Notes: generated from the sequence alone by a model not told the origin. Counted from the first letter of the stretch, positions 642 through 25,300 are shown. The stretch is DNA of 64,000 nucleotides from Paracoccaceae bacterium (GCA_024742695.1 JANSXY010000020.1:1-64000), one strand, 5' to 3'. Translations and numbers: made by a program.

Positions 642-861
642 GAATCCCTTTTCCAAATGAGGATGGGGTCAAACCAGACGAGCTAATGAATGGACACGAA
701 GGATCGCCATTGGCGAGGCTGTCACCAGATTTTGCGCGCCGGGGTTGTGCATTGGTTAATCGGGCGCGCGCAGTACGGAGAATTCGACAGAAGATCTTCA
801 TCCCGCGTTAGGGATGCGCCGGGCAAGAATCACTGGCCCCGCGCCGGTCGGCGCATGGGCC

Positions 862-1290
862 ATGTCCGTGACGGGGCCGATGCCGATGCACCTTTCCAAG
901 CCACTGACATTCTTTGTCTATCGGTCCCGGAAACTATGCGGGCCGAATGCCGTCGATGATCTCGTCGCGCGGTCCGCGCGCAACAACCGGGCCGCGGGCG
1001 TGACCGGTCTTCTGGTGCACGACCCGGTCCATTTTCTTCAGTTTCTCGAAGGTCCGATGGATGCCGTCGGCGCGGCGGTTCTGCGGATTGCCGCCAGCGA
1101 CCTGCACGCGGACATGACCGTTCTCGCCTGCGAACCGACGGACATGCGGCTGTTCTCGGACTGGAGTCTGCGGGGCGTTTCGCTGGAGGGGCGGGGCGAG
1201 ACAATCGCCGATATCGCGGGCTCGCTCGACCTCGCCGATCCCGAAGGTTGCATCCGGCGCCTGAGGTTCTATGCCCTGTCGGTTGCATGA
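862..1290 (+). CDS. BLUF-domain blue-light photoreceptor
   Basis: This short protein (142 residues from this start) is essentially a single BLUF domain, which binds FAD and senses blue light. The key residues are all visible: Tyr20 (FFVYRSRKL), Asn42 (RNNRAAGVTGLL), Gln60 (FLQFLEGP) and Trp101 (FSDWSL). The Asn-Gln and Gln-Trp spacings (18 and 41) match those of AppA as I remember them. No output domain is fused, so it must signal by protein contact, as in AppA- or PixD-type systems. The start is uncertain: ATGs at 814, 862, 880 and 886 are in frame and none has a strong ribosome site. It stands alone next to a chemoreceptor on the other strand; a light-taxis link is only a guess. Confidence 0.9.
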   Translation: MSVTGPMPMHLSKPLTFFVYRSRKLCGPNAVDDLVARSARNNRAAGVTGLLVHDPVHFLQFLEGPMDAVGAAVLRIAASDLHADMTVLACEPTDMRLFSDWSLRGVSLEGRGETIADIAGSLDLADPEGCIRRLRFYALSVA

Positions 1291-1868: not shown

Positions 1869-2786
1869 ATGCCGAGACGCCTGCCCCCGCTCAATGCCAT
1901 CCGCGCCTTCGAGGCCAGCGCCCGTCATGGCGGCTTCGTGGCCGCCTCCCAGGAACTCGGCGTCACCCCCGCGGCGGTCAGCCTGCAGATACGCAAGCTT
2001 GAGGAATTTTACGAGGTCACCCTTTTCCACCGCCTTCCAAGCGGCGTTGAACTCACCGAGATCGGCGCCGCGGTCTTCGCAGACTGTACGGCGGCGCTTG
2101 CGACGCTCCAGTCCACCACCGATCTCGTGGCCGCGCGCGAGACGCGGTCGCGCATCGTCATCAGTTGCATCAACTCGCTGGCGCATCGCTGGCTTGCCCG
2201 GCATCTGGCGCAACTGTCAGCGCGCGTGCCGGATCACTGGATCGAGGTCCGCGCCGAGCCCGATCCGGTCGATTTCGAGGATCGGGGCGTCGATCTACGC
2301 ATTACCTACGGCGAGCATCTCTATCCCCACCACGACACGCGCCCCCTTTTCACCGACTGCCTCGTTCCGCTTTGCACGCCGCAGTACGCGGCATCGGCCG
2401 GCCTTCCCGGTCATTCGCCCGAGGTGCTGGAGGAAGAACAGCTGATCGAGACATGGTGGAGCCCCAGTTTCTGGGCCTATCCGACCTGGGGCGACTGGTT
2501 TGCCGAAGCGGGTTTCCCGCGCCAGCCCAGGCAGGGGATCGGACCGGCAGTGAATATGCCGGCGCTGGCCATCGACATGGCCTTGGCCGGCGTCGGGATC
2601 GCGCTGGGGCAGGTGGCGCTGGCGGCGCAGGACATTGACTCCGGCCGGCTGGTCGCACCCTACGATTGCCGGCTTCCGATGCCGAGCCCCTATGCGATCG
2701 TGACCCCGCGCTCCGCACGCCGGAAGAAACGGCTTGCGCGGGTGGTTGCGGCGCTGGAGGAACTGGCGGCGCCGCTTTCGGCCTGA
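1869..2786 (+). CDS. LysR-family transcriptional regulator (GcvA-like)
   Basis: A 305-residue LysR-type regulator. The N-terminus (LPPLNAIRAFEASARHGGF) is the GcvA-subgroup winged-helix signature, and the recognition helix region reads VTPAAVSLQIRKLEE. The rest is the periplasmic-binding-protein-like effector domain. The ATG at 1869 puts the helix-turn-helix at the usual distance from the N-terminus. It is the first gene of the catabolic island and lies about 170 bp upstream of the DddP-like gene on the same strand. It probably controls that operon or is co-transcribed with it, but no clear operator was found in the gap 2787-2956. Confidence 0.9.
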   Translation: MPRRLPPLNAIRAFEASARHGGFVAASQELGVTPAAVSLQIRKLEEFYEVTLFHRLPSGVELTEIGAAVFADCTAALATLQSTTDLVAARETRSRIVISCINSLAHRWLARHLAQLSARVPDHWIEVRAEPDPVDFEDRGVDLRITYGEHLYPHHDTRPLFTDCLVPLCTPQYAASAGLPGHSPEVLEEEQLIETWWSPSFWAYPTWGDWFAEAGFPRQPRQGIGPAVNMPALAIDMALAGVGIALGQVALAAQDIDSGRLVAPYDCRLPMPSPYAIVTPRSARRKKRLARVVAALEELAAPLSA

Positions 2787-2956
2787 CCGTTGCGGAATTG
2801 CCCTGCGCAAGCCGCTGCAGGCCCGGCGCCGGCACGGGCGGCCCTTGCCCCCATTTTTCCTTGTCCTGATGCAGTTTTTCTGCCGTTGAGGCCAGGGGTT
2901 GCCGTTCCTAACCTGCGCGCGAGTGCCACAGCCGGCACGAAGGGGAAGGGGTTGCC

Positions 2957-4240
2957 ATGGACGATCACCTGCCAAGGACGGGCGACGTGATTCCGGAACT
3001 CAGCGACGGACTGAAACGGTCCTTCCTGAACATCGACGCCTTTGGAAAACCCCTGAAATCCCCGATCCCGCAATCCACGCTCGACCGCACGCGGGCCTGG
3101 CGGCTGAAGCGGATGCGCGACCAGGTCGTGGCACATGACTGCGCGGCAATCCTGATGTATTCGCCGATCAACATCCGCTACGCCTTCGACTACACGAACA
3201 TGCAGATCTGGTCGACGCGCGAGGCCACGCGCTACGCGCTGCTGTTCGGCGAAGGCCCGGCGATCATGCACGAATACAAGGGTGCCGAGCATCTGGTGAA
3301 GAACGGCGCCGGGGTCGACATGGTGGTGCCCGCGACGACCTGGCTCTACATGATCTCCGACAGCGAGGTGCAGGCCCGCGCGGCCCGCTGGGCGGCGGAG
3401 ATCGCCGATCTGGTCACGCAGTACGGCGGCGGCAATCGCCGCATTGCGGCAGACAAGCTGGACCCGCTTGGTCTGCGCGCGCTCGAGGCTCTGGGCATCG
3501 AGGTGATCGACGGGCAGGAACTGGCCGAAAAGGCCCGCAGCCTGAAGTCGCCCGAGGAAATCGAGTTGATGCAGTGGACCCTGACGGTGGCCGAAAGCGG
3601 GATGTGGCGGATGCATGCCGCCTCCGTTCCCGGCGCCACGGAGAACGAGATCTGGGCCGAGCTGCACCACGAGAACATCCGTTCCGGAGGGGAATGGTTC
3701 GAGGCGCGGCTGCTGTCGTCCGGGCCCCGGACGAACCCGTGGTACCAGGAAGCCTCCGACCGGGTGATCTCGGAAGGCGAAATGATCAGCTTCGATACCG
3801 ACATGATCGGCCCCTACGGCTACTGCGCCGACCTCAGCCGGTCGTGGACCTGTGGCCACGTGCCGATGACGCCAACGCAACGGGGCCTCTACCGCCTGGC
3901 GCTGGACCAGATTCAGCAGAACACCGAGATCCTGCGCGCCGACATGACCTTTGCCGAGTTCAACGAGAAGAGCTGGAAAATCCCCGAGGAGAACCAGCCC
4001 TTCCGGTACTCGCTGGCGATTCATGGCGTCGGTCTGGTGGACGAATGGCCGGTCGTGCCCCTGCATGTGGACGTGGACGGCAGCTTCGGCGCGCGCGAGG
4101 GCCGGTTCCACGAGAACATGGTCGTCTGCGTCGAAAGCCTGATGGCGGCGCCGGGGACGGAAAGCATCAAGCTTGAAACGCAGGTTCTGATCACGGCGAA
4201 CGGGCCGGTCCGGCTCGACACCTTCCCATGGGAGATGTGA
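2957..4240 (+). CDS. M24-fold metalloprotein, DddP-like (possible DMSP lyase paralogue or Xaa-Pro dipeptidase-like)
   Basis: A 427-residue member of the M24 (pita-bread) family. The C-terminal domain carries a full metal-ligand set: Asp280, Asp282, Asp292, His356, Glu393 and Glu407. The D-x-D-x9-D-x63-H spacing equals that of the ligands I recall for DddP of Ruegeria (D295, D297, D307, H371). The segment GEWFEARLLSSGPRTNPWYQ also closely resembles DddP, the cofactor-binding lyase that cleaves dimethylsulfoniopropionate. Other M24 relatives (prolidase, creatinase) fit less well, but substrate cannot be assigned. The ATG at 2957 follows an AAGGGG ribosome site. Its stop overlaps the start of the MttB-like gene (TGATG), so the two are translationally coupled, suggesting that both act on the same methylated compound. 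Confidence 0.75.
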   Translation: MDDHLPRTGDVIPELSDGLKRSFLNIDAFGKPLKSPIPQSTLDRTRAWRLKRMRDQVVAHDCAAILMYSPINIRYAFDYTNMQIWSTREATRYALLFGEGPAIMHEYKGAEHLVKNGAGVDMVVPATTWLYMISDSEVQARAARWAAEIADLVTQYGGGNRRIAADKLDPLGLRALEALGIEVIDGQELAEKARSLKSPEEIELMQWTLTVAESGMWRMHAASVPGATENEIWAELHHENIRSGGEWFEARLLSSGPRTNPWYQEASDRVISEGEMISFDTDMIGPYGYCADLSRSWTCGHVPMTPTQRGLYRLALDQIQQNTEILRADMTFAEFNEKSWKIPEENQPFRYSLAIHGVGLVDEWPVVPLHVDVDGSFGAREGRFHENMVVCVESLMAAPGTESIKLETQVLITANGPVRLDTFPWEM

Positions 4241-5781
4241 TGCAAGTCCCCCGCCGCCGCGGGCGCGCGGCGCAATCCTCGGCCCGATCTGCCGCTGCCC
4301 GCATTCCGCAAGCCCCCAGGGGTGGCCCTCGGCACTGCACCGCCCCGCTTTCGTTCGTCGCCCCGGAGGCGCTGGTCCAGATTCACGAGGCCTCGCTCAC
4401 CATCCTCGAGGAGATCGGGATGGATTTCCTGTCGCCGCGGGCGCGTGCAATGGCCATTTCGGCCGGCGCCACGGCGGGACCGGAGCCGGAACGGCTGCGT
4501 TTCGACCGTGGCCTCGTGACGGAAATGGTGGCCAAGGCCCCGGCCCGGTTCGTCCTGCGGGCCGGCGACCCGTTGAAGAACCTTCCGATCGGCGAGGGTT
4601 TCACGCATTGGGGCTGCGTGTCTTCCGCCCCGCAGGTGAACGATCTCTCCGGCGGTCGCCGCCCCGGCAGCCAGGAGGATTTCCGCCGCTTCGTGAAGCT
4701 TGGCCACGGCCTGAACGTCATCGGCTTTTTCGGCGGCTACCCGGTGGAGCCGCAGGATCTCCCCCCCGCGACCCGTCATCTGGATTGCATCAGCGACTTC
4801 CTGACGCTGACCGACAAGGTCTTTCATCCCTACTGCCTTGGCGCGACGCGCATCCGGGACGCCCTGGACCTGATCCGGCTTGCACGCGGCCTGACCGAAG
4901 ACGAACTGCGCGAAGGACCGCAGTGCTATACCGTCGTCAACTCGTCTTCGCCGCTGCGCTACGATGCCCCGATGCTGGACGGGCTGATCGAAATGGCCTT
5001 GGCCAACCAGTGCGTCTGCTTCACCCCGTTCACGCTCGCGGGCGCGATGGCCCCGATCACGCTGGCAGGCGCGCTTGCCCAGCAGAACGCCGAGACGCTG
5101 GCCGGCATTGCCTTTGCCCAGATGGTCCGGCCCGGTGCGCCGGTGATCTACGGCGCCTACACGTCGAACGTCGACATGCGGACGGGGGCGCCCGCGATGG
5201 GGACGCCGGAGTATTTCAAGGCGGCCGTGATCTCGGGCCAACTCGCGCGGTTCTACGGCGTACCCTACCGGTCGTCCGGCGGCAACGCCGCGAACGCGCC
5301 CGACGCGCAGGCGGTCTACGAGACGACGTTCGCGCTCTGGGGGGCGAAGCTCGGGCAGGCGGATATCGTGATGCATTCCGCCGGCTGGCTGGAAGGCGGG
5401 CTTTCGGCCAGCCCCGAGAAACTGGTCATCGACGCGGAGATCCTTCAGGGAATCGATGCCGCGTTCGCGCCGGTCGCGGTGGATGACGAAAGCCTTGGCC
5501 TTGACGCGATCCGCGAGGTTGGGCCGGGCGGGCATTTCTTCGGGGCCGCGCACACGATGGCCCGCTACACGAGCGAATTCTACAGCCCGCTGCTTTCCGA
5601 CTGGTCGAACTTCGGCGCCTGGACGGCCGCCGGTTCGCGCGAAACCCTGGCAAGGGCGCACGACCTGATGAAGGCCCTGCTGGATGCCTACGAGCCCCCC
5701 GCGCTGGAACCGGCCCGGGCCGAGGCGATGGCCGCCCACGTCGCCCGCCGGAAGGCCGAGGGGGGCGCATTGGATGCCTGA
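4240..5781 (+). CDS. Trimethylamine methyltransferase (MttB) family protein, non-pyrrolysine type
   Basis: This 513-residue protein belongs to the MttB superfamily of TIM-barrel enzymes that move a methyl group from a quaternary or tertiary amine to a corrinoid protein. The frame has no internal amber codon, so it is the non-pyrrolysine kind, whose characterised members act on glycine betaine, proline betaine or carnitine. Visible segments include the N-terminal ILEEIGMDFLSPRA helix and the barrel region RSSGGNAANAPDAQAVYETT. The ATG at 4240 overlaps the preceding stop; a more upstream ATG at 4228 would overlap further. The first 35 residues are Arg/Ala-rich and poorly conserved in type. No corrinoid protein or activating enzyme is encoded in this window, so the methyl acceptor must be elsewhere or different. 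Its 3' end overlaps the next gene by 8 bp. Confidence 0.85.
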   Translation: MQVPRRRGRAAQSSARSAAARIPQAPRGGPRHCTAPLSFVAPEALVQIHEASLTILEEIGMDFLSPRARAMAISAGATAGPEPERLRFDRGLVTEMVAKAPARFVLRAGDPLKNLPIGEGFTHWGCVSSAPQVNDLSGGRRPGSQEDFRRFVKLGHGLNVIGFFGGYPVEPQDLPPATRHLDCISDFLTLTDKVFHPYCLGATRIRDALDLIRLARGLTEDELREGPQCYTVVNSSSPLRYDAPMLDGLIEMALANQCVCFTPFTLAGAMAPITLAGALAQQNAETLAGIAFAQMVRPGAPVIYGAYTSNVDMRTGAPAMGTPEYFKAAVISGQLARFYGVPYRSSGGNAANAPDAQAVYETTFALWGAKLGQADIVMHSAGWLEGGLSASPEKLVIDAEILQGIDAAFAPVAVDDESLGLDAIREVGPGGHFFGAAHTMARYTSEFYSPLLSDWSNFGAWTAAGSRETLARAHDLMKALLDAYEPPALEPARAEAMAAHVARRKAEGGALDA

Positions 5782-7813
5782 GGTCCGCGCCGGACTCGGA
5801 CCGCTGTTCGAGCCGCTGACGCTGCGGGGGCGGGTGCTGAAGAACCGGATCGCCAGCACGGCTCACGCGCCCGGCTACGCCGAGCAAGGCCTGCCCGGCC
5901 CGCGTTACCAGGCCTACCACGAGGCCAAGGCCAGGGGCGGAATCGGGCTGACGATGTTCGGCGGATCGTCGATCGTGTCGGGCGACGTTACCTCGATCTA
6001 CGGGCAGATCGACGTGTCGAACGACCGGATCATCCCGCATTTCCGCGCCTTTGCCGACCGCATACACGCCCATGGTGCGGCCCTGATGTGCCAGATCAGC
6101 CACATGGGCCGCCGGACCGCCTGGGACGCGGGCGACTGGATCGCCCCGGTTGGCCCATCGGCGGTGCGGGATCCCGCGCACCGCGCCATGCCCCGCGCCA
6201 TGGAAGAGGAGGACATCGCCCGCGTCCTTGCCGACTATGCCGCCGCCGCGCGCCGCTGCGCCGAGGGCGGACTCGATGGCTGCGAGGTCTTTGTCACGTC
6301 GCACCTGCCGGGCCAGTTCCTGTCGCCGGCAGCGAACCGGCGCGAGGACCGGTGGGGTGGCGACCTGCAAAACCGGATGCGGTTCCTGCTGGAGATCCTG
6401 CGCGGTGTCCGCACCGCGGTGCCGCAGGACTTCGTCGTCTCGCTGCGGATGAGCCCGGATGAAAGTGGCGAAGGCGGCCCGGATGCCGCCGAATGCCTCG
6501 CCGTTGCCGCCGCCGCCCGCGACGAGGGGCTGATCGACCTCGTGAACCTGATCGGCCCCGGCGGCGCGACCAATGCCTCGATCGCGCAGGTGATCCCCGG
6601 CATGGCGCTCCCGCTGGCGCCCTGGATGCAGATGGCGAAGGATTTCCGGGAACGGATTGGCCTGCCGGTTCTGCATGCCACCCGGATCACCGATCTCGGG
6701 ACCGCCGCCCATGCCGTCGCGTCGGGCGCGGTGGACCTTGTCGGCATGACGCGCGGCCATATCGCCGATCCGAACATCGTGCGAAAGGCGCTTGCCGGGC
6801 AGGAGGACCGCATCCGCCCCTGTGTCGGCGCCTCATACTGCATCGACCGGGTCTATTCCGGCAAGGACGCCCTTTGCCTGCACAATGCCGCCACCGGCCG
6901 CGAAACCTGGCTTCCGCAGGATATCGAGCCGTCCGAAACGCGTCTCAAGGCCGTGGTCGTGGGGGGCGGACCGGCCGGTATGGAGGCGGCGCGGGTGCTG
7001 GCACTGCGCGGGCATGAGGTGCTGCTTCTCGAGGCGTCCACACGCCTTGGCGGCCAGATCCGGCTGGCCCAGAAGGCAGCCTGGCGGCGCGACCTGGCCG
7101 GGATCGCCGACTGGCTGGTCGTGGAACTGGGCCATCTGGGTGTTTCCGTTCGGTTCGATGTCTGGGCCGAAGCCGAAACGGTGCTTGCCGAGGCGCCCGA
7201 CATCGTGATCGACGCGACGGGCGGGTTGCCCAAGGGCATGGCGATCCCTGGCGCCCACCTTGTCACCACGGGCTGGGAAGCGCTTTCAAATCCACCCGAA
7301 GCCGGCCGGTCCGTCCTGATCCACGACGAGGTCGGCGGGCATCAGGCGGTCTCCCTGGCCGAATTCCTCGTGCGACGGGGCTGCGACGTCGAGATATGCA
7401 CTCCGGATCGACTGGTCGGGCGCGAGCTTGGCGGGTCTTCGTACCCCGTCTACCTCGGCAATCTCGCCCGCGCGGGGGTGGTGATGACGCCGGCGACGGC
7501 GCTCGCCGCTGTCGAGGCGCGGGGCAATCGGCTGGTTGCGCGGCTGGCGCATGAATACGGCGGTCCCGAACTCCGGCGCACCGTCGACCTGGTGATCGCG
7601 GAATGCGGGACCGAACCGATACCCGACCTGTTCGCCGCCCTGAAACCGCATTCCGTCAATCATGGCGTGACCGATCTTGCCGCAACGCTGGCGGGAACGC
7701 CGCAGCCGCTGGCCGGCCGGGGAATGCGGCTGTTCAAGGTGGGCGACGCCGCCGCGAGCCGCGACATCCACGCCGCGCTCCTCGATTCCCTGCGCCTGTG
7801 CAAGGGACTTTGA
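5774..7813 (+). CDS. Flavin/Fe-S oxidoreductase of the TMADH/2,4-dienoyl-CoA reductase family (DgcA/StcD-like demethylase)
   Basis: A 679-residue two-part enzyme: an Old Yellow Enzyme-type FMN barrel (residues 1 to about 345) followed by a Fe-S segment and an NAD/FAD domain with a Rossmann motif VVGGGPAGMEAARVL near residue 395. Relatives oxidatively demethylate trimethylamine, dimethylglycine or N-methylproline. The Fe-S motif has Cys350, Cys356 and Cys368, but the position of the second TMADH cysteine is Ala353, so only three of the four expected ligands are present. I believe this is shared by DgcA/StcD-type proteins. The GTG-free start ATG at 5774 lies inside the end of the MttB-like gene (8-bp overlap), giving a tight three-gene unit with the DddP-like and MttB-like genes. 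This context supports a role in demethylating an N-methylated compound. Confidence 0.85.
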   Translation: MPEVRAGLGPLFEPLTLRGRVLKNRIASTAHAPGYAEQGLPGPRYQAYHEAKARGGIGLTMFGGSSIVSGDVTSIYGQIDVSNDRIIPHFRAFADRIHAHGAALMCQISHMGRRTAWDAGDWIAPVGPSAVRDPAHRAMPRAMEEEDIARVLADYAAAARRCAEGGLDGCEVFVTSHLPGQFLSPAANRREDRWGGDLQNRMRFLLEILRGVRTAVPQDFVVSLRMSPDESGEGGPDAAECLAVAAAARDEGLIDLVNLIGPGGATNASIAQVIPGMALPLAPWMQMAKDFRERIGLPVLHATRITDLGTAAHAVASGAVDLVGMTRGHIADPNIVRKALAGQEDRIRPCVGASYCIDRVYSGKDALCLHNAATGRETWLPQDIEPSETRLKAVVVGGGPAGMEAARVLALRGHEVLLLEASTRLGGQIRLAQKAAWRRDLAGIADWLVVELGHLGVSVRFDVWAEAETVLAEAPDIVIDATGGLPKGMAIPGAHLVTTGWEALSNPPEAGRSVLIHDEVGGHQAVSLAEFLVRRGCDVEICTPDRLVGRELGGSSYPVYLGNLARAGVVMTPATALAAVEARGNRLVARLAHEYGGPELRRTVDLVIAECGTEPIPDLFAALKPHSVNHGVTDLAATLAGTPQPLAGRGMRLFKVGDAAASRDIHAALLDSLRLCKGL

Positions 7814-7841
7814 GGGTTGGCATCGGGGCACAAAGCATAAG

Positions 7842-7866
7842 ATTTTCTGACCCGGAGTCAGGAATT
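7842..7866. promoter_or_regulatory. Imperfect palindrome upstream of the first binding-protein gene
   Basis: Two 10-base arms, ATTTTCTGAC and GTCAGGAATT, flank a 5-base centre (CCGGA); the inner five pairs are perfect and 8 of 10 pairs match overall. It lies about 110 bp before the ABC binding-protein start, where a regulator could act, and a GCATAA half-site sits at 7835-7840 just before it. It could also be a weak terminator of the preceding operon, though it has no T-tract. Confidence 0.35.
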
Positions 7867-7974
7867 GTGCAGTTGCCGCTTTGGTTCTCCTGAGCCTTGC
7901 TTGACGTGGGAAGAGCCAAGAGGCCGCCGATTCAGGAACAGATGCACGCACAAGCATCCTTCAGGGAGTAGCCC

Positions 7975-9618
7975 ATGTCTGACTTCATGCTCACCGGACG
8001 GTCCCTGCACCCGCAGGCCAAGGCGACCGCAGAGGATTTCCGCACCGGCCGGCTCAGCCGCCGCGAGTTCTTCGCGACGATGGCGGCATTCGGCGTCAGC
8101 GCAGCGGGGGCCTATGCCCTGGGCGGCATCCGGCCGGCAGCCGCGCAGGATGCGACGCCCGTCAAGGGCGGCACGCTTCGCGTTGCGATGCTGGTCAAGG
8201 CCTTCCGCGACCCGCGCATCTTCGAATGGACGGAGCCGGCGAATATCGCCGCCTGCTGCAACGATTACCTGGTCCGCTGGGACAACGACTTCAGCTTTGC
8301 GCCGCAGTTGCTCGAGAGCTGGGAAGCCAGCGACGACGCGATGACCTACACGTTCAACGTCCGCAAGGGGGTGAAGTGGTCGAACGGCGATGACTTCACG
8401 GCCGACGACGTGATCTTCAACCTGACCCGCTGGGCGGATTCCTCGGTCGAGGGCAATTCCTTCGTCGCGCGGCTGGCCGCGCTGATGGACGCGGATGGAA
8501 AGACGCTTCTGCCGAACGCGATCGAAAGGGTCGACGACCACACGGTCCGCCTGAACCTGCGCCAGCCCGACATCGCGCTGATCGCGAACCTTTCCGACTA
8601 CCCCGCCCTGATCATGCATCGCAGCTATGATGGCAGCGACGATCCCATGCAGGCCCTCGCCATCGGCACGGGTCCGTTCGAGCTTGTGTCCTTCGAGACC
8701 GGCATGCGCGCCGAGGTCCGGCGCCGGGCGCAACCGTGGTGGGGCGGCGACGTTCATCTCGACGGTGTCGTCTGGACGGATTACGGCACTGACTCGACCG
8801 CCATGGTTTCGGCCTTCGCGGCGGGCGAGATCGACGCAAACTACCAGACCACCCCCGATTTCCTTCCGCTCGTGGAAGCCGCCGGCATCACGACCGAAGG
8901 CGCGGCGACGGCGCAGACGCTGGTGCTCCGTCTGAACCAGGGCGTCGCGCCCTATGACGACGTCCGGGTGCGGCGCGCGATGCAGCTGGCCGTCGACAAC
9001 CAGAAGGTTCTGGAGCTTGGCTACGGCAACGCGGGAACCGTGGCGGCGAACCACCACGTCGGTCCGATGCACGAGGACTATGCCGACATCGGACCGGCCG
9101 TCACCGACGGCCAAGAGGCTGCCGCGCTGATGGAGGCGGCCGGGCAGGCCGATCACGAATTCGACCTGATCAGCCAGGAGGAGGAGTGGCAGTCCAACTC
9201 CTGCGATGCCGTCGCGGACCAGATGCGGGCGGCCGGGCTGAAGGTCAAGCGGACGCGGATTCCCGGTGCGACCTTCTGGAACGACTGGGACAAGTATCCG
9301 TTCTCGGCGACCGAGTGGGCCGGGCGCCCGTTGGGCGTGCAGGTCTACATGCTGGCCTACAAGTCCACCGGCCCGTGGAGCGAAACGGCCTTCTCGAACG
9401 CCGAGTTCGATGCGCTCCTGGATGAGGCGACCGCGATCGCCGACGCGCGAAAACGTTCGGAGGTGATGGCCAGGCTGCAGCGGATCATGATCGACGAGGG
9501 CGTCATCCTGCAGCCCTACTGGCGGTCGGTTTACCGGTCGTTCTCGCCGCGGGTACGGGGACTGGGCGCGCATCAGGCCTTCCGGCAGTTCATGGACCGG
9601 GTATGGCTGACCACCTGA
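7975..9618 (+). CDS. ABC transporter substrate-binding protein, peptide/nickel family (Tat-exported)
   Basis: A 547-residue solute-binding protein of the SBP_bac_5 family, which captures oligopeptides, opines and similar compounds in the periplasm. The N-terminus has a twin-arginine signal ([14 protein letters not shown]) about 27 residues in, followed by a hydrophobic stretch and an Ala-x-Ala-type cleavage site near PAAAQ. The conserved family block around [19 protein letters not shown] is clear. The ATG follows a GGGAG ribosome site. No permease gene is adjacent; the likely partners are the ABC genes at 12815-16418. A second Tat-type binding protein at 19358 may share the same permease. Confidence 0.9.
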
Positions 9619-12814: not shown

Positions 12815-14602
12815 TCAGGACACCGGCAGTTCCGCCACCGGAAGGTGGCAGGCGATCTGCAAGTCTCCGGGCAAGTCCCGCACAGCCGGGGCGGTCGTGT
12901 CGCAGGTGCCGCTGATCGCCAGGGCGCACCGATTGGCGAACGGGCATCCCGTGCCGCCGATCACGACGCTTGCGGCACTGGCCGCCCTGGCCTCGCTGGT
13001 GTCGGCCACGCCGTCCAGCCAGCCCTGCCGCATCTCGGGGACAGAGGACAGGAGAAGCTTCGTGTACGGGTGGAACGGCGGGCTGAACACGGCCTTCGAC
13101 GGGCCCTTTTCCACAACGCGGCCCGCGTAGAGAACCACGACCTCGTCGGCGAAGGAGGCCACGGTCGACAGGTCGTGGCTGATGAACATGTAGGCGACGC
13201 CAAGCTTGTCCTTCAGCGATTTCAGCAGCTCGATCACCCCGGCGGCGACGACGGTGTCGAGCGCCGAGGTGACCTCGTCGCACAGGATGACCTTGGGGTC
13301 CGCCGCGAGCGCGCGGGCCAGGTTGACGCGCTGCTTCTGCCCGCCCGACAACTCGCCGGGAAACCGCGACGCGAACCCGCGCGGCAGATCGACGAGTTCC
13401 AGAAGCTCCGCCACCCTCTCGGCCCGTTCGCGCCCCTTGAGCCCCTGGTAGAAGTCGAGGGGCCGACCGAGGATATCGCCGATCCGCTGCCGCGGGTTGA
13501 GGGCGGTATCGGCCATCTGGAAGACGATCTGGCAGTCCTTCAGCGCGGCGCGGGGCCGGTCCCTGACGGCAGGCGCCGCCGGTTTGCCGTCGAGGATGAC
13601 CGTTCCCTCGCGCAGCGGGGTCAGGCCCGCGACGACCCGCGCCAGCGTGCTCTTGCCGCACCCGCTTTCGCCGATCACGCCGACGACCGAGGCGGCGGGC
13701 ACGTCGACCGACACGTCCGAAAGGATCGTCAACGCGCCGTATCCCGCCGTGACGTTGCGCACCGAGATCACCGGCGCCTGCGCGGCTGCCGGGTCGATAT
13801 GGTCGACCAGGTGCGGTGCCGGCCGGACAGCGGCCATCAGCGTGCGCGTGTAGTCGTGTCGCGGGGCGTGCAGGATTTGGTTCGTTGGCCCTTCCTCGAC
13901 CGTCTCGCCGTTCTTCAGAACGAGGATGCGATCGGCCACCTGCGCGACGACGGCGAGGTCGTGGGTGACATAGATCGCCGCCGTTCCCTGATCGCGGATG
14001 ATGTCCCTGAAGGCCTTCAGAACCTCGATCTGCGTGGTCACGTCCAGCGCCGTGGTGGGTTCGTCCAGGATCAGAAGGTCGGGTCCGCAGGACATCGCCA
14101 TCGCGGCCATCAGGCGCTGCAACTGCCCGCCCGACACCTGGTGGGGGAACTTCTCGCCAACCGTCTCCGGGCTTGGCAGGTCGAGCTTGCGGTAAAGCTC
14201 CACCGCCGCCGCGGTCAGGGTCGCGGCATCTCCGGCGCCGTGCCACAGCGGTGCCTCGATCACCTGCCGGCCGATGCGCAGGGCCGGGTTGAAGCTTGCC
14301 GCGGCGGATTGCGCGACATACGACACCTCGTCCCCGCGCAGGGCATGCCGATCATGCGGGGGCAGGGCCATGATATCGCGGCCGTTCAGCCAGACCTCGC
14401 CCCGGGAAATCCGGCAGCCCGGCCGGGCAAAGCCCATCGCCGCCAGCGAGATGGTGGATTTGCCCGATCCGCTTTCCCCGATCAGCGCCAGAACCTCGCC
14501 CTTGCGGACGTTGAGCGAAACGCCCTTCACGATCGGCACGTAGTCGCCGCCGGGCGGGCGCCCCTCGACGTGGAGGTTCTTGATGGTCAGGACGTCGGTC
14601 AT
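12815..14602 (-). CDS. ABC transporter, fused dual ATP-binding protein (DppD-DppF type)
   Basis: A 595-residue protein containing two complete peptide-transporter ATPase domains in one chain. Walker A motifs are GESGSGKST near residue 40 and GESGCGKST near residue 305; signature motifs VSGGQLQR and LSGGQKQR and two Walker B/H-loop sets follow. The C-terminus has the Cys-containing oligopeptide-transporter extension (GCPFANRCA). It energises uptake of peptides, opines or similar solutes. The ATG at 14602 overlaps the stop of the upstream permease gene (ATGA), so the three minus-strand genes form a coupled operon in the order permease, permease, ATPase. A larger upstream extension of the frame is a shadow of the permease gene. 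Confidence 0.93.
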   Translation of the reverse strand: MTDVLTIKNLHVEGRPPGGDYVPIVKGVSLNVRKGEVLALIGESGSGKSTISLAAMGFARPGCRISRGEVWLNGRDIMALPPHDRHALRGDEVSYVAQSAAASFNPALRIGRQVIEAPLWHGAGDAATLTAAAVELYRKLDLPSPETVGEKFPHQVSGGQLQRLMAAMAMSCGPDLLILDEPTTALDVTTQIEVLKAFRDIIRDQGTAAIYVTHDLAVVAQVADRILVLKNGETVEEGPTNQILHAPRHDYTRTLMAAVRPAPHLVDHIDPAAAQAPVISVRNVTAGYGALTILSDVSVDVPAASVVGVIGESGCGKSTLARVVAGLTPLREGTVILDGKPAAPAVRDRPRAALKDCQIVFQMADTALNPRQRIGDILGRPLDFYQGLKGRERAERVAELLELVDLPRGFASRFPGELSGGQKQRVNLARALAADPKVILCDEVTSALDTVVAAGVIELLKSLKDKLGVAYMFISHDLSTVASFADEVVVLYAGRVVEKGPSKAVFSPPFHPYTKLLLSSVPEMRQGWLDGVADTSEARAASAASVVIGGTGCPFANRCALAISGTCDTTAPAVRDLPGDLQIACHLPVAELPVS

Positions 14603-15474
14603 TGATCGATCTTCTCCAGAACGGTCTCGCCTTGCTGGCGCTGCTGGAACCAGTCCACCAGAAGGTTCATGCTGACGGTCAGGGAGGCGATGCAGGCCGC
14701 CGGGATCAGCGCGGCGGACGAGCCGAGGAACAGCCCGCCGACGTTTTCCTGAACCATCAGCCCCCAGTCCGCGGCCGGTTCCTGCACGCCAAGGCCGAGG
14801 AAGGACAGGCCCGACAGGAACAGGATCGAGAAGGTGAAGCGCAGCCCGAATTCCGCGATCAGCGGGGCCATGGAATTCGGCAGGATCTCGCGGGTCAGGA
14901 TCCACCATGTCCCTTCGCCGCGGGCGCGCGCCGCCTCGACGAAATCCATCACGCCGATGTCGTAGCCAAGCGCCCGCGACACCCGGAACACGCCCGTCGA
15001 CAGCACCAGCCCGACCGTCAGCACCAGGACGGTGATCGAGGTTCCGAAGGCCCCGATCACCACCAGCGCCAGCAGGGTCGACGGAAAGGCCATGAACGCC
15101 TCGACGATGCGGCTGATCACGACGTCGAACCAGCCCTTCAGGATCGCGGCGGCGAACCCCAGCGTGACGCCGAAGGCGAAGGAGATCAGGGTGGTGATCA
15201 GGGCGAGCAGCATGGTCGTCCGAACGCCGTAGATCAGGCGCGAGAAGACGTCGCGCCCCAGCTTGTCGGTGCCCAGAAGCCCGCCTTCCCCGATCGGCGC
15301 GAAGGTGGTGCCCGAGATGATCTCGGCCTCGCCATGCGGCGCGATCCACGGCCCGAACAGGGCAAGGACCAGCCAGAACAGCAGGATCGCGCCGGCCAGA
15401 CCTGCCGTCCACGTCAGGCGCAAACCGGCGAAGACCGACGCCCGCGGCGCGCCGTGATCCGATACGTCGCTCAT
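14599..15474 (-). CDS. ABC transporter permease (DppC/OppC type)
   Basis: A 291-residue inner-membrane permease of the dipeptide/oligopeptide class. It has a cytoplasmic N-terminus, a first transmembrane segment near residues 25-45, then GTDKLGRDVFSRLIYG, the hallmark entry to the core domain, followed by about five more membrane segments. The coupling (EAA) loop is seen at ARARGEGTWWILTREILPN. Both ends overlap neighbouring genes by four bases (ATGA), showing translational coupling with the other permease and the ATPase. Confidence 0.93.
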   Translation of the reverse strand: MSDVSDHGAPRASVFAGLRLTWTAGLAGAILLFWLVLALFGPWIAPHGEAEIISGTTFAPIGEGGLLGTDKLGRDVFSRLIYGVRTTMLLALITTLISFAFGVTLGFAAAILKGWFDVVISRIVEAFMAFPSTLLALVVIGAFGTSITVLVLTVGLVLSTGVFRVSRALGYDIGVMDFVEAARARGEGTWWILTREILPNSMAPLIAEFGLRFTFSILFLSGLSFLGLGVQEPAADWGLMVQENVGGLFLGSSAALIPAACIASLTVSMNLLVDWFQQRQQGETVLEKIDQ

Positions 15475-16418
15475 TTCGGGTACCTCAGACGCGGGTTGGC
15501 CATGATCGACAGCACATCGGCCAGAAGGTTGAGCAGGATGTAGACCGTTCCGAAGATCATCGCGCAGGCCTGGATCAGCGGGATGTCACGCAGGGTGACG
15601 GCATCCACCAGAAGCCGGGTCAGACCCGGAACCCCGAACACGGTTTCGACGATGATCACGCCCGACACCATGTAGCTGAGGTTCAGCGCGATCACGGTGA
15701 GGATCGGCGACAGCGCGTTCGGCAGGGCATGGCGGATGACGAGCCGCCGCTTCGGCAACCCCTTGAGCGCGGCCATCTCCATGTAGGGCGAGGTGAAGAT
15801 GTTGATCACCGAGGAGCGCGTCATCCGCATCATGTGCGCCAGAACGGCGAAGCTGAGGGTGGCGACGGGCAGGGCCAGCGCACGGAAATTCTGCCAGAAG
15901 TCGAAATACGGCCGCGTGTTGGCCGAGGCGGACAGCCATTTGAGTTCGACGGCGAAGACCTTCATCAGGATCAGGCCGATGAAGAATTCCGGCACCGCGA
16001 TCAGCGCCAGCGTGGTCATCGCCAGCGTCTTGTCGACCCGGCCGCCCGCGCGCATGGCCGACCACAATCCGAACGCCAGGGACAGCGGAACGGAAATCGC
16101 CGCCGCCAGCAGGGCGAGACGCAGGGTGTTCCACATGCGGCTTTCGATCATGTCCGCCACCGGACGGTCCGTGGCCAGCGACGTCCCGAGGTCGCCCCGC
16201 AGCAGTCCGCCAAGCCAGTCGAAGTACCGCTCGATCGCCGGGCGGTTCAGACCCATCTCCTCGCGCAGCGCCGCCAGCGCCTCCTCCGTCCGGCTCTGGC
16301 CCAGGATCGCCTCGGCCACGTCGCCGGGCAGGATCTCGGTCGCGCCGAAGACGATGATGGAGGCCAGCAGCAGGGTCAGAAGCCCCTGCGCGAGGCGCGT
16401 CAGGATGATCCGGTACAC
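15471..16418 (-). CDS. ABC transporter permease (DppB/OppB type)
   Basis: A 315-residue permease, first gene of the minus-strand ABC operon. The start is taken as GTG at 16418: it has a GGGAGG ribosome site and gives the standard N-terminus (YRIILTRLAQGLLTLLLAS) with a membrane helix. The in-frame upstream ATG would add an unlikely, Pro/Arg-rich leader. Typical features are the GDVAEAILG and LRGDLGTSL blocks and the EAA-loop region at MEMAALKGLPKRRLVIRHAL. The operon shares its promoter region (16419-16612) with the divergent acyl-CoA ligase gene; that gap contains a GTTATG half-site at 16507. Confidence 0.92.
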   Translation of the reverse strand: MYRIILTRLAQGLLTLLLASIIVFGATEILPGDVAEAILGQSRTEEALAALREEMGLNRPAIERYFDWLGGLLRGDLGTSLATDRPVADMIESRMWNTLRLALLAAAISVPLSLAFGLWSAMRAGGRVDKTLAMTTLALIAVPEFFIGLILMKVFAVELKWLSASANTRPYFDFWQNFRALALPVATLSFAVLAHMMRMTRSSVINIFTSPYMEMAALKGLPKRRLVIRHALPNALSPILTVIALNLSYMVSGVIIVETVFGVPGLTRLLVDAVTLRDIPLIQACAMIFGTVYILLNLLADVLSIMANPRLRYPK

Positions 16419-16612
16419 CTTGTCCCTCCCTTCAAGGCTGCCGGCATCTTCGGTGCAAGCCCGATGCCCGACAAGCAACGATAGCGATCCGTATGGGGTT
16501 GTTTTGGTTATGGCGGCGGCATGCGTCGGCCGCCGTTCGGGCAAAGCCGTGGTTTTTATTGTTTGCCTGCCGGGTCCGAAAGGCGGCAAACCGGTTGCAA
16601 CCGGAGATGCCG

Positions 16613-19357: not shown

Positions 19358-20935
19358 ATGTCCGATATCGACAGCCTTGTCCGGCAATACAGGGCCGGCG
19401 CGCTGAGCCGCCGCGGGTTCTTCAAGCGCGCGGGTGCCTTCGGTCTGCTCATGCCGGCGGCAAGCGGCATTCTCGCCATGGCCGGCCCCGCCCGTGCGCA
19501 GACGCCGTCGCGCGGCGGCTGGCTGCGGGTCGCGCAGGGCAATACCGACAACACGCTGGAACCGGTGCGCATGGTCGATACCGACGACGGCATCTACAGC
19601 AACTGCGTCTACCAGCGCCTGACGCGCCTGTTGCCCACCCTCGAGGTCGAGGGCGACGCGGCAGAGGAATGGACGGTCAACGACGCGGCGACGGAGTGGA
19701 GCTTCAGGCTGCGTGGCGGCCTCATGTTCCACAATGGGCAGACCGTGACCGCGGCCGATGTCGTCGAAAGCCTGATGCGTCACATCGCGGAAGGTTCGGA
19801 ATCGCCCGCCAAGGCGCTGCTGTCGACCGTGACCGCCATCGAGGCGCCCGACGCCACGACGGTGAAGATCACGCTGTCCTCGGGCAATGCCGATCTTCCG
19901 GTGATCATGTCGGACTACCACCTGGCGATCCATCCGGCGGGCCATGCCGATTTCGTCAATGCGATCGGGTCCGGCCCGTTCAAGGTGATGGAGTTCATTC
20001 CGGGTGAACGCGTGGTTCTGGAGCGCTTCGAGAACTACTACGAAGACGGCAAGCCCTACCTCGACGGGATCGATTTCATTCCCGTTCCCGACGTCAATGC
20101 CACGCTCAGCACGCTGCTGGCCGGCGATGTCGACGCGATCCGTGACGTGCCCGCCTTCGCCGTCGAGCAACTGAGCGGCAACGACGCGGTCACGCTTTAC
20201 AACACGCCCACCGGCGCCTTCACCAACATGGTGATGATGGTGGACCGTGCACCCACGAACGATCCGAACTTCCGCAAGGGCATCAAGCACGCGCTGGATC
20301 GCGAACTGATCCTGAACCAGGTGTTCAAGGGCATCGGCACGCTTTCGGCCGATACGCCGATCGGGCCGACCTACAAGTACTGGTGCGAGGATGTGAAACC
20401 GGCCGAGTACGACCTCGACAAGGCGAAGTTCTACTTCGACAAGGCCGGCGTGAACGCGATCGACCTCTACACCTCGGAAACCGCCGGCAGCTCGGCCAAC
20501 GATATCGCGCTGACCTTCCAGCAGTCGGCCAAGGGCGCGGCGGATATCAACGTCGTCAAGACCCCGTCGGACGGCTTCTGGTCGAACATCTGGATGCAGA
20601 AGCCGATGACGATGTCGGGCTGGCAGGCGCGGCCGACGGTCGATGCGTTCCTGACCATCGCCCACATGAAGGGCGGCAGCTGGAACGAAACCATGTGGGG
20701 TTCGGACGAGTTCGACGCGATGATCATCGCGGCGCGCGCCGAACTGGACGAGGCGAAGCGCGCCCAGATGTATTGCGACATGCAGCACATGATGAACGAC
20801 GACGGCGGCTTCGTGAACGCGGTCTTCCAGAACCAGCTCGAGGCGACGTCCAAGAACGTGATGGGCTGGACCCCGCATTCCGTCGGCGGACTGGGCGGGT
20901 TCGGGCAGACCCTGCGCGACGTCTGGCTGGCCTGA
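19358..20935 (+). CDS. ABC transporter substrate-binding protein, peptide/nickel family (Tat-exported)
   Basis: A 525-residue SBP_bac_5 family periplasmic binding protein. A twin-arginine signal (LSRRGFFKRAGAFGLLMPAA) is followed by a cleavage site near ARAQ. The family block WSFRLRGGLMFHNGQTVTAADVV and the C-terminal VWLA end are typical. It is clearly different in sequence from the other binding protein in this island (7975), so the two may present different ligands to the shared permease encoded at 12815-16418. The ATG follows GGGAGGGAAG. A palindromic candidate operator lies upstream (19239) and a GC-rich hairpin downstream. Confidence 0.9.
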   Translation: MSDIDSLVRQYRAGALSRRGFFKRAGAFGLLMPAASGILAMAGPARAQTPSRGGWLRVAQGNTDNTLEPVRMVDTDDGIYSNCVYQRLTRLLPTLEVEGDAAEEWTVNDAATEWSFRLRGGLMFHNGQTVTAADVVESLMRHIAEGSESPAKALLSTVTAIEAPDATTVKITLSSGNADLPVIMSDYHLAIHPAGHADFVNAIGSGPFKVMEFIPGERVVLERFENYYEDGKPYLDGIDFIPVPDVNATLSTLLAGDVDAIRDVPAFAVEQLSGNDAVTLYNTPTGAFTNMVMMVDRAPTNDPNFRKGIKHALDRELILNQVFKGIGTLSADTPIGPTYKYWCEDVKPAEYDLDKAKFYFDKAGVNAIDLYTSETAGSSANDIALTFQQSAKGAADINVVKTPSDGFWSNIWMQKPMTMSGWQARPTVDAFLTIAHMKGGSWNETMWGSDEFDAMIIAARAELDEAKRAQMYCDMQHMMNDDGGFVNAVFQNQLEATSKNVMGWTPHSVGGLGGFGQTLRDVWLA

Positions 20936-20975: not shown

Positions 20976-21005
20976 GGGCCGCCGGCCATGGCCGGCCGGC
21001 GGCCC
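20976..21005. terminator. GC-rich hairpin between binding-protein and DmdA-like genes
   Basis: Perfect 12-base arms (GGGCCGCCGGCC at 20976-20987 and its complement at 20994-21005) enclose a 6-base loop. No T-tract follows, so it may be a transcription attenuator or mRNA-stabilising hairpin rather than a full terminator. A CATAAT half-site lies just before it at 20963. It ends 33 bases before the DmdA-like start. Confidence 0.45.
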
Positions 21006-21038
21006 GTCTCATCGCGCCCCCGTTCCGCCGGAGCCATC

Positions 21039-22142
21039 ATGTTCTCCATCACCCCGTCCTCCCGGTTGCGAACCTCGCCGTTCTTCGAGGCCACGGTCGC
21101 CGAAGGCGTCTGCGCGATGACCACCTACAACCTCATGCTGATGCCAACCTCCTACGGGAACCCGGAGGAGGAATACTGGCGCTTGATCAACGGCGTTTCG
21201 ATGTGGGACGTCGCGGTCGAACGGCAGGTGCAGCTGAAGGGCCCCGATGCGGGCAGGTTGGCCCAGATCCTCGCGCCGCGCGACCTGTCCCGCTGCAAGG
21301 TCGGCCAGGGCAAGTACGTGCCGCTGTGCAATCACCGCGGCGTCCTGATCAACGATCCGATCCTGTTGAAGCGGGCGGACGATCTTTATTGGCTTTCGAT
21401 CGCCGACAGCAACATCTGGTTCTGGGCCGAGGCCATCGCCCGTGAACGCGGATTGCGCGTCGAGATCAGCGAGCCGGATGTCTCGCCGCTGGCCGTGCAG
21501 GGGCCCAAGGCGGAGGCCGTCGTGGCCTCGATCTTCGGCGACTGGGTGCGCGAGCTGAAATACTTCTGGTTCCGCGAGGCCGCGGTTTCCGGGATTCCCG
21601 TGGTCGTGGCCCGGTCGGGCTGGTCCAAGCAGGGCGGCTTTGAAATCTACCTGATGGACGGCTCCAGGGGCACCGCGCTTTGGAACATCGTCAAGGAGGC
21701 GGGACAGGCGCATGGCATCGGACCGGGCAACCCGAACTGGTGCGAACGCGTGGAAAGCGGCCTGGTCGCCTACGGCGGCGACACGGATGGCGAGACCAAC
21801 CCGTTCGAAGTGCGCATGGGCCGGTACGTGGATCTCGACGTGCCCGACGACACGATCGGGATCGGGGCGTTGCGCCGGATCGCGTCCGAAGGCCCCCGGC
21901 GCCACCAACTCGGCGTCGTGCTCGATGGCGCGGAACCGTTCGCGACCGGGTTCAGCTGGTCCGATATCGAGAAGGACGGTCGGAAGATCGGCGACCTGAC
22001 CAATTGCACATGGTCCTACCGGATGCGCCGGAACATCGGCTTCGCGCTCGTTGCCACCGCGGCCCGGCCCGGAGATGAAGTCCTGGTGCGGCGCGGCGCG
22101 GTCCCGGTGAAAGGCACCTTGTGTGAGTTGCCGTTCCTCTGA
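21039..22142 (+). CDS. GcvT-family THF-dependent methyltransferase, DmdA-like
   Basis: A 367-residue protein of the GcvT/DmdA family. It aligns by eye over its length with dimethylsulfoniopropionate demethylase: TSPFFEATVAEGV and YNLMLMPT at the N-terminus, WDVAVERQVQLKGPDA, SEPDVSPLAVQGPKAE, and VVARSGWSKQGGFEIYL, all nearly as in DmdA. DmdA transfers a methyl group from a sulfonium to tetrahydrofolate. Many close relatives outside the true DmdA clade have other or unknown methyl donors, so the substrate is not assigned. The ATG at 21039 (GGAG seven bases before) gives the DmdA-like N-terminus; the next in-frame ATG (21117) would cut off conserved sequence. Its place beside the MttB-, DgcA- and DddP-like genes supports a role in handling methyl groups. 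Confidence 0.8.
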   Translation: MFSITPSSRLRTSPFFEATVAEGVCAMTTYNLMLMPTSYGNPEEEYWRLINGVSMWDVAVERQVQLKGPDAGRLAQILAPRDLSRCKVGQGKYVPLCNHRGVLINDPILLKRADDLYWLSIADSNIWFWAEAIARERGLRVEISEPDVSPLAVQGPKAEAVVASIFGDWVRELKYFWFREAAVSGIPVVVARSGWSKQGGFEIYLMDGSRGTALWNIVKEAGQAHGIGPGNPNWCERVESGLVAYGGDTDGETNPFEVRMGRYVDLDVPDDTIGIGALRRIASEGPRRHQLGVVLDGAEPFATGFSWSDIEKDGRKIGDLTNCTWSYRMRRNIGFALVATAARPGDEVLVRRGAVPVKGTLCELPFL

Positions 22143-22326: not shown

Positions 22327-25300
22327 GTGGCCTTCAACACATCAGCGGCGCCCCGCCCCGCACGGCCAACCGTCGTGACCCCATGTCTCGCGTGGGCCTT
22401 CTGGCGCGGGCAGCCCCTGCAGCGCGTGGCGGCCGCCGATCCGGACACCCTGACGCGCATCGCGCGGCATCCGCAGGCGCGGCGGGTGCGCGTCGATCCG
22501 CGCTGCCCCGCCACCTCGGTCGCGCGTCTGCTTGGCGGGCTGGCGACGGCGATCGTCGTGCTGCCGGTCGCGGCCCTTGCCCAGCAGACCGATTTCGTCC
22601 CGGTCTCGTCGATCCCGTGGATCGAGCGCATGGAACTGAATGCCGACGGCTCGGCCCTGTTCGAGCTGACCAACGGCAACCAGGTTCTGGTTGCGCCGGA
22701 ATACCTGCGCATCACCAAGGAAGGCGGGATCCTGGTCTCGCTGTCGGCCTTCGACGACGATACCGAGGCGCTGCCGCTGCTGTTCTTCCCGGGCGGACTG
22801 GGCGCGCTGGCCGCGGGTGGGGTCGCGGTCGGCATCGGGGCGGGGGGCGGTGACGGCGCGGGTGGCGGCGACGGTGGCGGTGGCGGGGGCGGTGTCGATC
22901 CGTCGTCCGGCACCGGCTACGTCGTCGACGGCTATCTGGTCGACACCCGGGTGTTCCGCGATCTCGATCTCGACGGCGTCTGGGACGCGGGCGTGGAACC
23001 CTCCACCCGGACAGGTGGCCGCGGGGCGTTCGACTTCGCCTTCCTGCCCGGCGCCGGGCCGATCGTGGCCGAGGGCGGCTACGATCTGACCACCGGCCTA
23101 CCGGTCGCGGGGCAGCTGTCGGCGCCCGACGGGGCGACGGTGATCACGCCGCTCACGACGCTGGTGCACGAGATGGTCATGGCGCGCGCGGACACGACCA
23201 TGGCCCTGACGGCGGCGGAGGCCGAGGCCGGGCTGCGCGCGGCGCTGGGCCTGACCGGCGGCACGATGCTGGACCGCGACCCGATGGCCGAGGCCGAGGC
23301 CGGCGACACCGCGGCCTTCGCCGCCGCCGCGCGGGTGGCCAATATCCTGCACGTGGCCGAGGCGCTGGGCGCGGACCAGGGCGCGGTGGCCGCCGCGCTG
23401 GCCGAGGCGCTGGCCGCGGCGGCGCCGGGGACCGACCCGCTGGCGGATGCCGCGGCGATCACCGCGGCGCTGGAGGCCGGGCTGTCGTCGGCCCCCGTGG
23501 TCTCCACCGCCGCGCTGGGCGTCCTGCTGGCCGAGGTCGCGCCGGTCGCCGGCGACGAGATCGAGACGATCGAGTACAGTCTGGAAACCGTGGCGATCAC
23601 CCTGGCCGGGATGATCCGCGCAGGTGGCCCCCTGCCCGCGGGCATGGCCGAGATCATGGAGGACGGCTGGCCGTTCACGCCCTACCTCTTCGGGTTCGAC
23701 GGGGTGATCGGCGCGTACGAGGTCGCCGCCGGGGCGGAGATTTCCGGGCATGGCTATCCGGGCTCCACCGTCACCCTGACGATCGCCGGGCTGACCGGAA
23801 CCGCCACCGTCGCCGCCGACGATACCTGGACCGTCCAGTTCGCGCCGGGCGCCTTCACCGCCGAGGGACGGTTCGACATCGCCATCGTGGCCGAGCGGAT
23901 CGCCGATGGCGTCCTGCTCGTCAGCCGCACGGTGCGCGAGGAGGCGGTGATCGACCTCACCCCCTCCGTCATAGACGGCGACATCACCGGCGACGTGACC
24001 GAGGATGCCGTGCCGGACACGGCGGCGGGCAGGCTGACCTATTCGGACCCGGACGCGACCGCGACGTGGTCGGGGGATGCCAATGGCACCTACGGTCGCT
24101 TCGCGATCACCGCGGCGGGGGCCTGGACCTACACGCTGGACAACGCGCGGGCGGCGACGCAGGGGCTGGCGGAGGGCCAGAGCGAGACCGAGACCTTCAC
24201 GGTGACGGTGACCGACGACAAGGGCGCGACGGCGACGCGGGACGTGACGATCACGGTGACGGGGACGAACGACGCGCCGGTGATCGACGGGACGTCCGTG
24301 GTCTCCGGGGCCGTGGTCGAGAGCGGAAGCGATGGGACCGGTTTGGAAGTCGTGCCCGGTACACCGACGGCCACGGGCACGCTGACCGCGTCGGATGTCG
24401 ACGACGGGGCGACGGCGATCTGGTCGGGGAATGCTGACGGCCGCTACGGCCGCTTCGTGATCGATCCGGCGGGGGCCTGGACCTACACGCTGGACAACAC
24501 ACGGGACGAGACCCAGGCGCTGGCCGAGGGGACAAGCGAGACCGAGACCTTCACGGTGACGGTGACCGACGAGCATGGCGCGACGGCGACGCGGGACGTG
24601 GCGATCACGGTGACGGGGACGAACGACGCGCCGGTGATTTCTGGGACGGCGACGGGGGCGGTGACCGAGGATGCCGCGCAGACCACGACGACGGGCACGC
24701 TGACCGCGTCGGATGTCGACGACGGGGCGACGGCGATCTGGTCGGGGGATGCTGACGGCCGCTACGGCCGCTTCATGATCGATCCGGCGGGGGCCTGGAC
24801 CTACACGCTGGACAACACACGGGACGAGACCCAGGCGCTGGCCGAGGGGACAAGCGAGACCGAGACCTTCACGGTGACGGGGACTAACGACGCGCCGGTG
24901 ATTTCCGGGACGGCGACGGGGGCGGTGGTCGAGAGCGGAAGCGATGGGACCGGTCTGGAAGTCGTGCCCGGCACACCGACGGCCACGGGCACGCTGACCG
25001 CGTCGGATGTCGACGCCGGGGCGACGGAGACGTGGTCGGCGGCGCCGACGGAGGGCATCTACGGCAGCTTCGCGATCACCGCGACCGGGGACTGGACCTA
25101 CACGCTGGACAACACGCGGGACGAGACCCAGGCGCTGGCCGAGGGGACAAGCGAGACCGAGACCTTCACGGTGACGGTGACCGACGACAAGGGCGCGACG
25201 GCGACGCGGGACGTGACGATCACGGTGACGGGGACGTATGACAGCGGTTTCGTGATCATCGGCGCGCGGTCCCACGATTTGTCCGGCTACTCCGTCAGCG

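Follow-up and report, generated by a model that had tools for sequence, protein, structure and literature searches.

A five-gene cassette with a DddP-like M24 metalloprotein, an MttB-family methyltransferase and an HpbA-type flavoprotein, and its possible role in betaine catabolism

Gene layout and conservation of the cassette

The window, i.e. the whole 64,000-nt stretch of Paracoccaceae DNA that was analysed, carries three full-length ORFs, all on the plus strand, which code for an M24 metalloprotein, an MttB-family methyltransferase and an OYE-type flavoprotein (Table 1). The ORFs lie where an earlier, sequence-only reading of the window had placed them, and the two overlaps it had described (TGATG and 8 bp) were found and recur to the base in a second genome, G103. 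For MttB, an in-frame ATG at 4228 is a possible start besides the one at 4240. The conserved unit is not the trio alone: it comprises five genes, LysR-M24-MttB-OYE-SBP5 (1869-9618), the last of which encodes an Opp-like binding protein with a twin-arginine signal (SRREFF).

Table 1. Cassette genes, their junctions and other features of the surrounding DNA (positions in the window)
Feature	Position	Strand	Remarks
BLUF blue-light sensor domain protein	814-1290	+	immediately upstream of LysR
LysR regulator (GcvA-like)	1869-2786	+	first cassette gene; 77% identity in G103, 67% in G029, position kept
M24 metalloprotein, DddP-like, outside the DddP clade	2957-4240	+	427 aa; 93% identity in G103
M24 stop/MttB start overlap, TGATG	4238-4242	+	identical in G103
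MttB-family (PF06253) non-pyrrolysine corrinoid methyltransferase	4240-5781	+	513 aa; 84% identity in G103
MttB end/OYE start overlap, 8 bp	5774-5781	+	identical in G103
OYE-type flavoprotein, HpbA/StcD (N-methylproline demethylase) class, DgcA-like	5774-7813	+	679 aa; 81% identity in G103
SBP_bac_5 (SBP5, Opp-like) binding protein	7975-9618	+	last cassette gene; 83% identity in G103, 74% in G029
Opp-type ABC transporter	12815-16589	-	two permeases and a fused double ATPase; no binding protein of its own; SBP5 genes on both sides, at 7975 and 19358
Second SBP5 gene	19358-20935	+	adjoins the DmdA-like gene
GcvT-family protein near DMSP demethylase DmdA	20988-22142	+	370/410 bits, under the cut-off
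Giant ORF, adhesin-like	22327-29565	+	2412 aa; FG-GAP, cadherin-like, Big_9 and RTX calcium-binding repeats

In a family sample of 296 genomes, one per genus, an M24 protein at least 80% identical to that of the window was present in three: the window genome itself (G000), G103 and G029. The gene order is intact in G103. G029 is a Gemmobacter metagenome-assembled genome (MAG), in which the cassette genes are split over two contig ends: one has LysR-M24-MttB, the other OYE and SBP5, the latter two separated by an OCD/mu-crystallin protein and a HutH-like lyase. The M24 stop codon of G029 merges into an in-frame GTG, a possible start of MttB. Thus, the three-gene order noticed in the window is conserved in related genomes, the overlaps are kept in a second genus, and the coupled M24-MttB junction is present in a third. 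The HutH-like aromatic lyase of G029 (L148, 11369-12928, minus strand) scores below the HutH cut-off and matches the structure of ergothionase almost equally well.

The genes flanking the window cassette had no counterpart in the G103 regions read. The cassette was delimited without the genes downstream (SDR, LysR, beta-lactamase, Opp permease and DmdA-like), none of which was found near the G103 or the G029 copy.

The exact five-gene arrangement is known from three genera only. A class-wide sample of 385 genomes yielded no further M24 protein of more than 60% identity beyond the window genome. A fourth M24, partial and 79% identical, is located at the end of a contig in a MAG that bears the label Rhizobium, and is preceded by a desaturase-like and a divergent LysR gene. 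A degenerate-pattern scan with M24 over 84,980 genomes gave only 2 loci, and the distribution of M24 described here therefore rests on the sampled whole-genome searches.

The three enzymes and their closest relatives

The first enzyme of the trio belongs to the Peptidase_M24 family, and its best NCBIfam profile is DddP, in agreement with the DddP-like assignment of the sequence-only reading. However, its score (361 bits) is below the cut-off of 600 bits, and the nearest solved structures, the DddPs 4b28 and 4rzy, are 38-40% identical to it. In a maximum-likelihood tree both solved DddPs formed a 100/100 clade together with C12, a separate true DddP encoded in the same genome (764 bits against the DddP profile). 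The window M24 is outside this clade, which, along with the score, excludes its identification as DddP. It nevertheless groups with the DddP side of the tree and not among prolidases, so the prolidase placement named earlier as the outcome contrary to the proposal did not occur. Prolidase 1pv9 has Gly at position 282 and His at position 362, while the window M24 has Asp at both; these residues and the tree placement rule out a prolidase.

The pita-bread fold is predicted for the window M24 by sequence, the DEWP motif is retained, and all tested DddP positions are kept, including those of the metal site (D280, D282, D292, H356, E393 and E407). The catalytic candidates of DddP, Tyr366 and Asp377 (PMC4108388), map by alignment to Y351 and D362. 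Two further PDB chains of DddP have Ala and Asn exactly opposite these residues, as Tyr366/Asp377 mutants would show, and the mapping is therefore confirmed. The surroundings of the conserved substrate tryptophan differ between the two proteins. The three trio-type M24 proteins have fixed R88 and E89 near this tryptophan, as well as H105, whereas position 88 is His in the compared sister and DddP proteins and position 89 is Asn in nearly all of them. Since the catalytic and metal residues are kept but those flanking the tryptophan are changed, the chemistry of M24 is probably DddP-like and its substrate probably different from that of DddP, with which it also does not share its gene neighbours. 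A conserved active site is no proof of lyase chemistry; we regard a lyase reaction of M24 as possible but doubtful. In two other DddP-like M24 proteins (L017 and L018) the Tyr366 and Asp377 positions are occupied by Gln and Asn, and their catalysis is probably different or lost.

MttB matches PF06253 over its full length (606 bits over residues 1-500) and contains neither an in-frame stop nor a pyrrolysine codon, which bears out the earlier description of a non-pyrrolysine MttB protein. Against the profile of the pyrrolysine TMA methyltransferase (TIGR02369) it scores below the cut-off (283/525 bits). The closest structures are 4yyc, of unknown function, and the glycine betaine methyltransferase MtgB.

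The earlier suggestion that this protein acts without a nearby corrinoid partner is correct for the locus, where none is encoded, but a search of the whole genome overturned the notion of a missing partner. The only PF02607 protein of the genome (C50) is a free-standing, MtgC-like corrinoid protein of 240 aa (PF02607 and PF02310), located beside DUF1638, and an MtgD-like pterin-binding protein (PF00809 and a CdhD match) is encoded at C1; the other pterin-binding protein is FolP-like and located beside FolB. Aerobic bacteria have up to seven MttB/MtgB paralogs with mostly unknown substrates, and these were proposed to feed different compounds into a shared MtgC/MtgD pair, which in Ruegeria pomeroyi, as shown with mutants, serves methionine synthesis as well as the demethylation of glycine betaine (PMC12478193). 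As the window genome encodes seven MttB paralogs and, away from the cassette, MtgC- and MtgD-like proteins, the R. pomeroyi precedent would explain the absence of a local partner. The window MttB differs from MtgB of that system, of which it is a distant and separate paralog, in its link to M24 and an HpbA-type flavoprotein.

The third enzyme consists of Oxidored_FMN and Pyr_redox_2 domains, and its closest annotated relatives are HpbA/N-methylproline demethylases (44-47% identity). It had been called TMADH-like, a designation that did not hold. In comparison with TMADH, Ala occupies the position of Cys30 (6-S-cysteinyl FMN), and the second Cys of the four-Cys 4Fe-4S motif is also replaced by Ala. 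Loss of the second Cys is family-wide, the remaining three-Cys motif being common to nearly all OYEs compared. The absent Cys30 and the altered iron-sulfur motif rule out TMADH, and in sequence the protein resembles the HpbA type. While HpbA/StcD enzymes are paired with a Rieske stachydrine demethylase, the window protein, with its predicted demethylase function, is paired with MttB.

MttB-OYE pairs that lack an M24 partner were found in the window genome and elsewhere (e.g. L052, 8664-12085, and L172, 6839-10443); in Mesorhizobium the two genes overlap, and one Mesorhizobium pair is located beside an Opp-type transporter. This suggests that MttB and OYE form a module of their own.

Gene neighbours of related M24 proteins

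To examine the genomic context of M24, 39 loci outside the DddP clade, picked by M24 similarity alone, were inspected for MttB within 8 kb. MttB was present in 14 of them, whereas seven MttB genes in a genome of 4.16 Mb would lead one to expect about 1.1 such loci (binomial tail 2e-12, with relatedness ignored), and 10 of these 14 loci also contained a DMGDH- or OYE-type demethylase. In the class-level sample alone, MttB accompanied M24 in 8 of 20 loci (4.6e-8). MttB was found in one of the 11 DddP-clade loci, a contrast that is not significant (Fisher p = 0.14), and 12 of the 39 loci, some of them on truncated contigs, had no partner from the panel. Because genomes of related organisms are not independent of each other, and since the contrast with the DddP clade is not significant, we claim an association of M24 with MttB, not exclusivity.

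The M24-MttB-demethylase associations span many alphaproteobacterial families, which strengthens the earlier idea of one common pathway for a methylated compound. In Sinorhizobium meliloti (pSymA) and Shinella, a set of DMGDH, LysR, MttB, GlxA, M24, isochorismatase and a glycine-betaine-type ABC transporter was found, together with mandelate-racemase-family and Ldh-family enzymes. Such MttB-DMGDH-M24 clusters, also present in Parasedimentitalea and several families, unite the same three functions as the window cassette and in rhizobia are accompanied by betaine-type transporters. They differ in having a DMGDH-type (FAD and GcvT) in place of the OYE-type demethylase, another gene order and a more distant M24.

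M24 relatives also have partners other than MttB. In Rhizobium, a related M24 follows GbcA/GbcB-like Rieske genes (418/670 and 320/500 bits), with a hydroxyproline epimerase and a glycine betaine/proline transporter nearby. These megaplasmid clusters (L173, L186 and L187) belong to a close M24 clade and share with the window a betaine-type first-step demethylase, but this is an oxygen-dependent Rieske enzyme where the window has the corrinoid MttB. The transporter is present in two of the three, and one of the loci adjoins formaldehyde-detoxification genes. In Pseudomonas, an M24 relative occurs with Rieske and BCCT transporter genes, while a 2-oxoglutarate (2OG) oxygenase-like gene commonly precedes it in Rhodobacteraceae; two such 2OG-M24 pairs (L039 and L040) adjoin lyases related to the HutH-like protein of G029. 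The window genome itself encodes a second M24 outside the DddP clade (L035, G000:C65, 6260-15042), located behind 2OG-oxygenase-like and desaturase-like genes and adjoining an MttB-DMGDH pair.

On the M24 tree the partner types interleave, with at least seven changes among 40 labelled rows (a quick tree with some long branches). This swapping of the demethylase partner points to an M24 step in quaternary-amine catabolism. In known systems the first methyl group of a betaine is removed by either of two unrelated enzymes, the Rieske-type GbcAB and the corrinoid-dependent MtgB. That these two types replace each other beside a single M24 family is, for this reason, the strongest clue to the pathway.

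Proposed pathway and competing explanations

Based on these observations, we suggest that the cassette is an operon under LysR control which serves the catabolism of a quaternary ammonium compound, likely an amino-acid betaine. We assign this reading a probability of roughly 0.6, and much the same applies to betaine catabolism as the setting of the cassette. For the substrate, the order of the steps and the M24 chemistry we infer the following scheme. SBP5 would capture the betaine for import, and MttB would move one N-methyl group to MtgC, the corrinoid protein shared by the seven MttB paralogs, from which MtgD would hand it on to tetrahydrofolate. The HpbA-type flavoprotein might then oxidatively strip a further methyl group from the resulting tertiary amine. 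Lastly, M24, by means of its DddP dinuclear-metal site with Asp and Tyr, may break the carbon skeleton, perhaps in a beta-elimination reaction at a C-N bond; the opening of the substrate proposed earlier would correspond to this presumed step.

As to the substrate, a cyclic amino-acid betaine would be the most economical, although weak, guess: the flavoprotein is HpbA-like, proline betaine is the substrate of MtpB, an MttB relative that has been characterised (listed in PMC12478193), and hydroxyproline genes occur in loci of related M24 proteins. The import of a betaine through an Opp-like SBP5 has a precedent in Prb of S. meliloti, which a title cited in PMC11337228 describes as an opp-like transporter for proline betaine. 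Histidine betaine or ergothioneine was also considered, as a HutH-like lyase is present in the G029 cassette and beside two relatives, but this enzyme is absent from the conserved core and the candidate was set aside.

Each of the families is known. In the open-licence literature searched, we found no description of an M24-MttB pathway, as the sequence-only reading had also supposed for the three families, nor of this combination of genes or of the shifting demethylase partnership of the M24 subfamily. The cassette can be seen as a betaine demethylation module with an additional putative step, that of M24, and it ties one MttB/MtgB paralog to defined partners within a single testable operon. 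More speculatively, and with limited confidence, the DddP-like M24 subfamily might represent a new metal-dependent class of betaine-processing enzymes, probably C-N lyases, whose partners across Proteobacteria, be they Rieske, corrinoid or 2-oxoglutarate enzymes, are interchangeable, and define an undescribed route of quaternary-ammonium degradation. Many DddP-resembling proteins annotated as 'Xaa-Pro peptidase' may, as the cassette also suggests, be involved in betaine turnover and not in proteolysis or DMS production, a reassignment that would affect the genome-based reading of marine DMS potential and nitrogen-osmolyte cycling.

Other explanations of the cassette were weighed against betaine catabolism. 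M24 could be a di- or oligopeptidase that frees an N-methylated amino acid from peptides imported through SBP5, with MttB and OYE demethylating the product. Such a role agrees with the M24 fold, with the usual binding of peptides by SBP_bac_5 proteins and with the 'Xaa-Pro peptidase family' annotation of M24 relatives. It seems unlikely, however, as the protein bears the DddP signature (the extra Asp 282 and Asp 362) instead of prolidase residues and groups with DddP, its relatives adjoin betaine-type and not peptide transporters, and Opp-like transporters can carry betaines, as the cited Prb title indicates (PMC11337228). Retention of all the DddP catalytic and metal residues, together with a DmdA-like gene 13 kb away, would also fit a divergent DMSP lyase in an operon handling DMSP plus an N-betaine. 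We find this very unlikely in view of the DddP equivalog cut-off (361 versus 600 bits), the position outside the 100/100 DddP clade, the possession of a DddP (C12) by the genome and the R-E pair that, solely in the clade of the window M24, takes the place of H-N close to the conserved Trp.

It is rather improbable, too, that M24 acts first, as a lyase that splits a larger onium compound and sets free a methylated amine, which MttB and OYE then demethylate. Although M24 is the first enzyme gene of the cassette and DddP likewise frees a methylated leaving group, MttB is of the non-pyrrolysine type and far from the TMA methyltransferase, and OYE lacks the flavin-linking Cys of TMADH and groups with HpbA-type proteins. 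The many MttB paralogs of the genome and the existence of MttB-OYE pairs without M24 could, in turn, mean that the genes are co-transcribed for convenience while their substrates differ. To this we give hardly any credence, since both overlaps are kept in G103, the cassette boundaries are exact and the association recurs in many families in which the genes are differently ordered and arranged.

Some of the loci with M24 carry genes of a different kind. Hydantoinase/oxoprolinase-family genes are located near MttB and M24 in L180, L185 and L048, and an isochorismatase-family gene follows M24 in L178 and L179; these genes recall N-carbamoyl or hydantoin chemistry.
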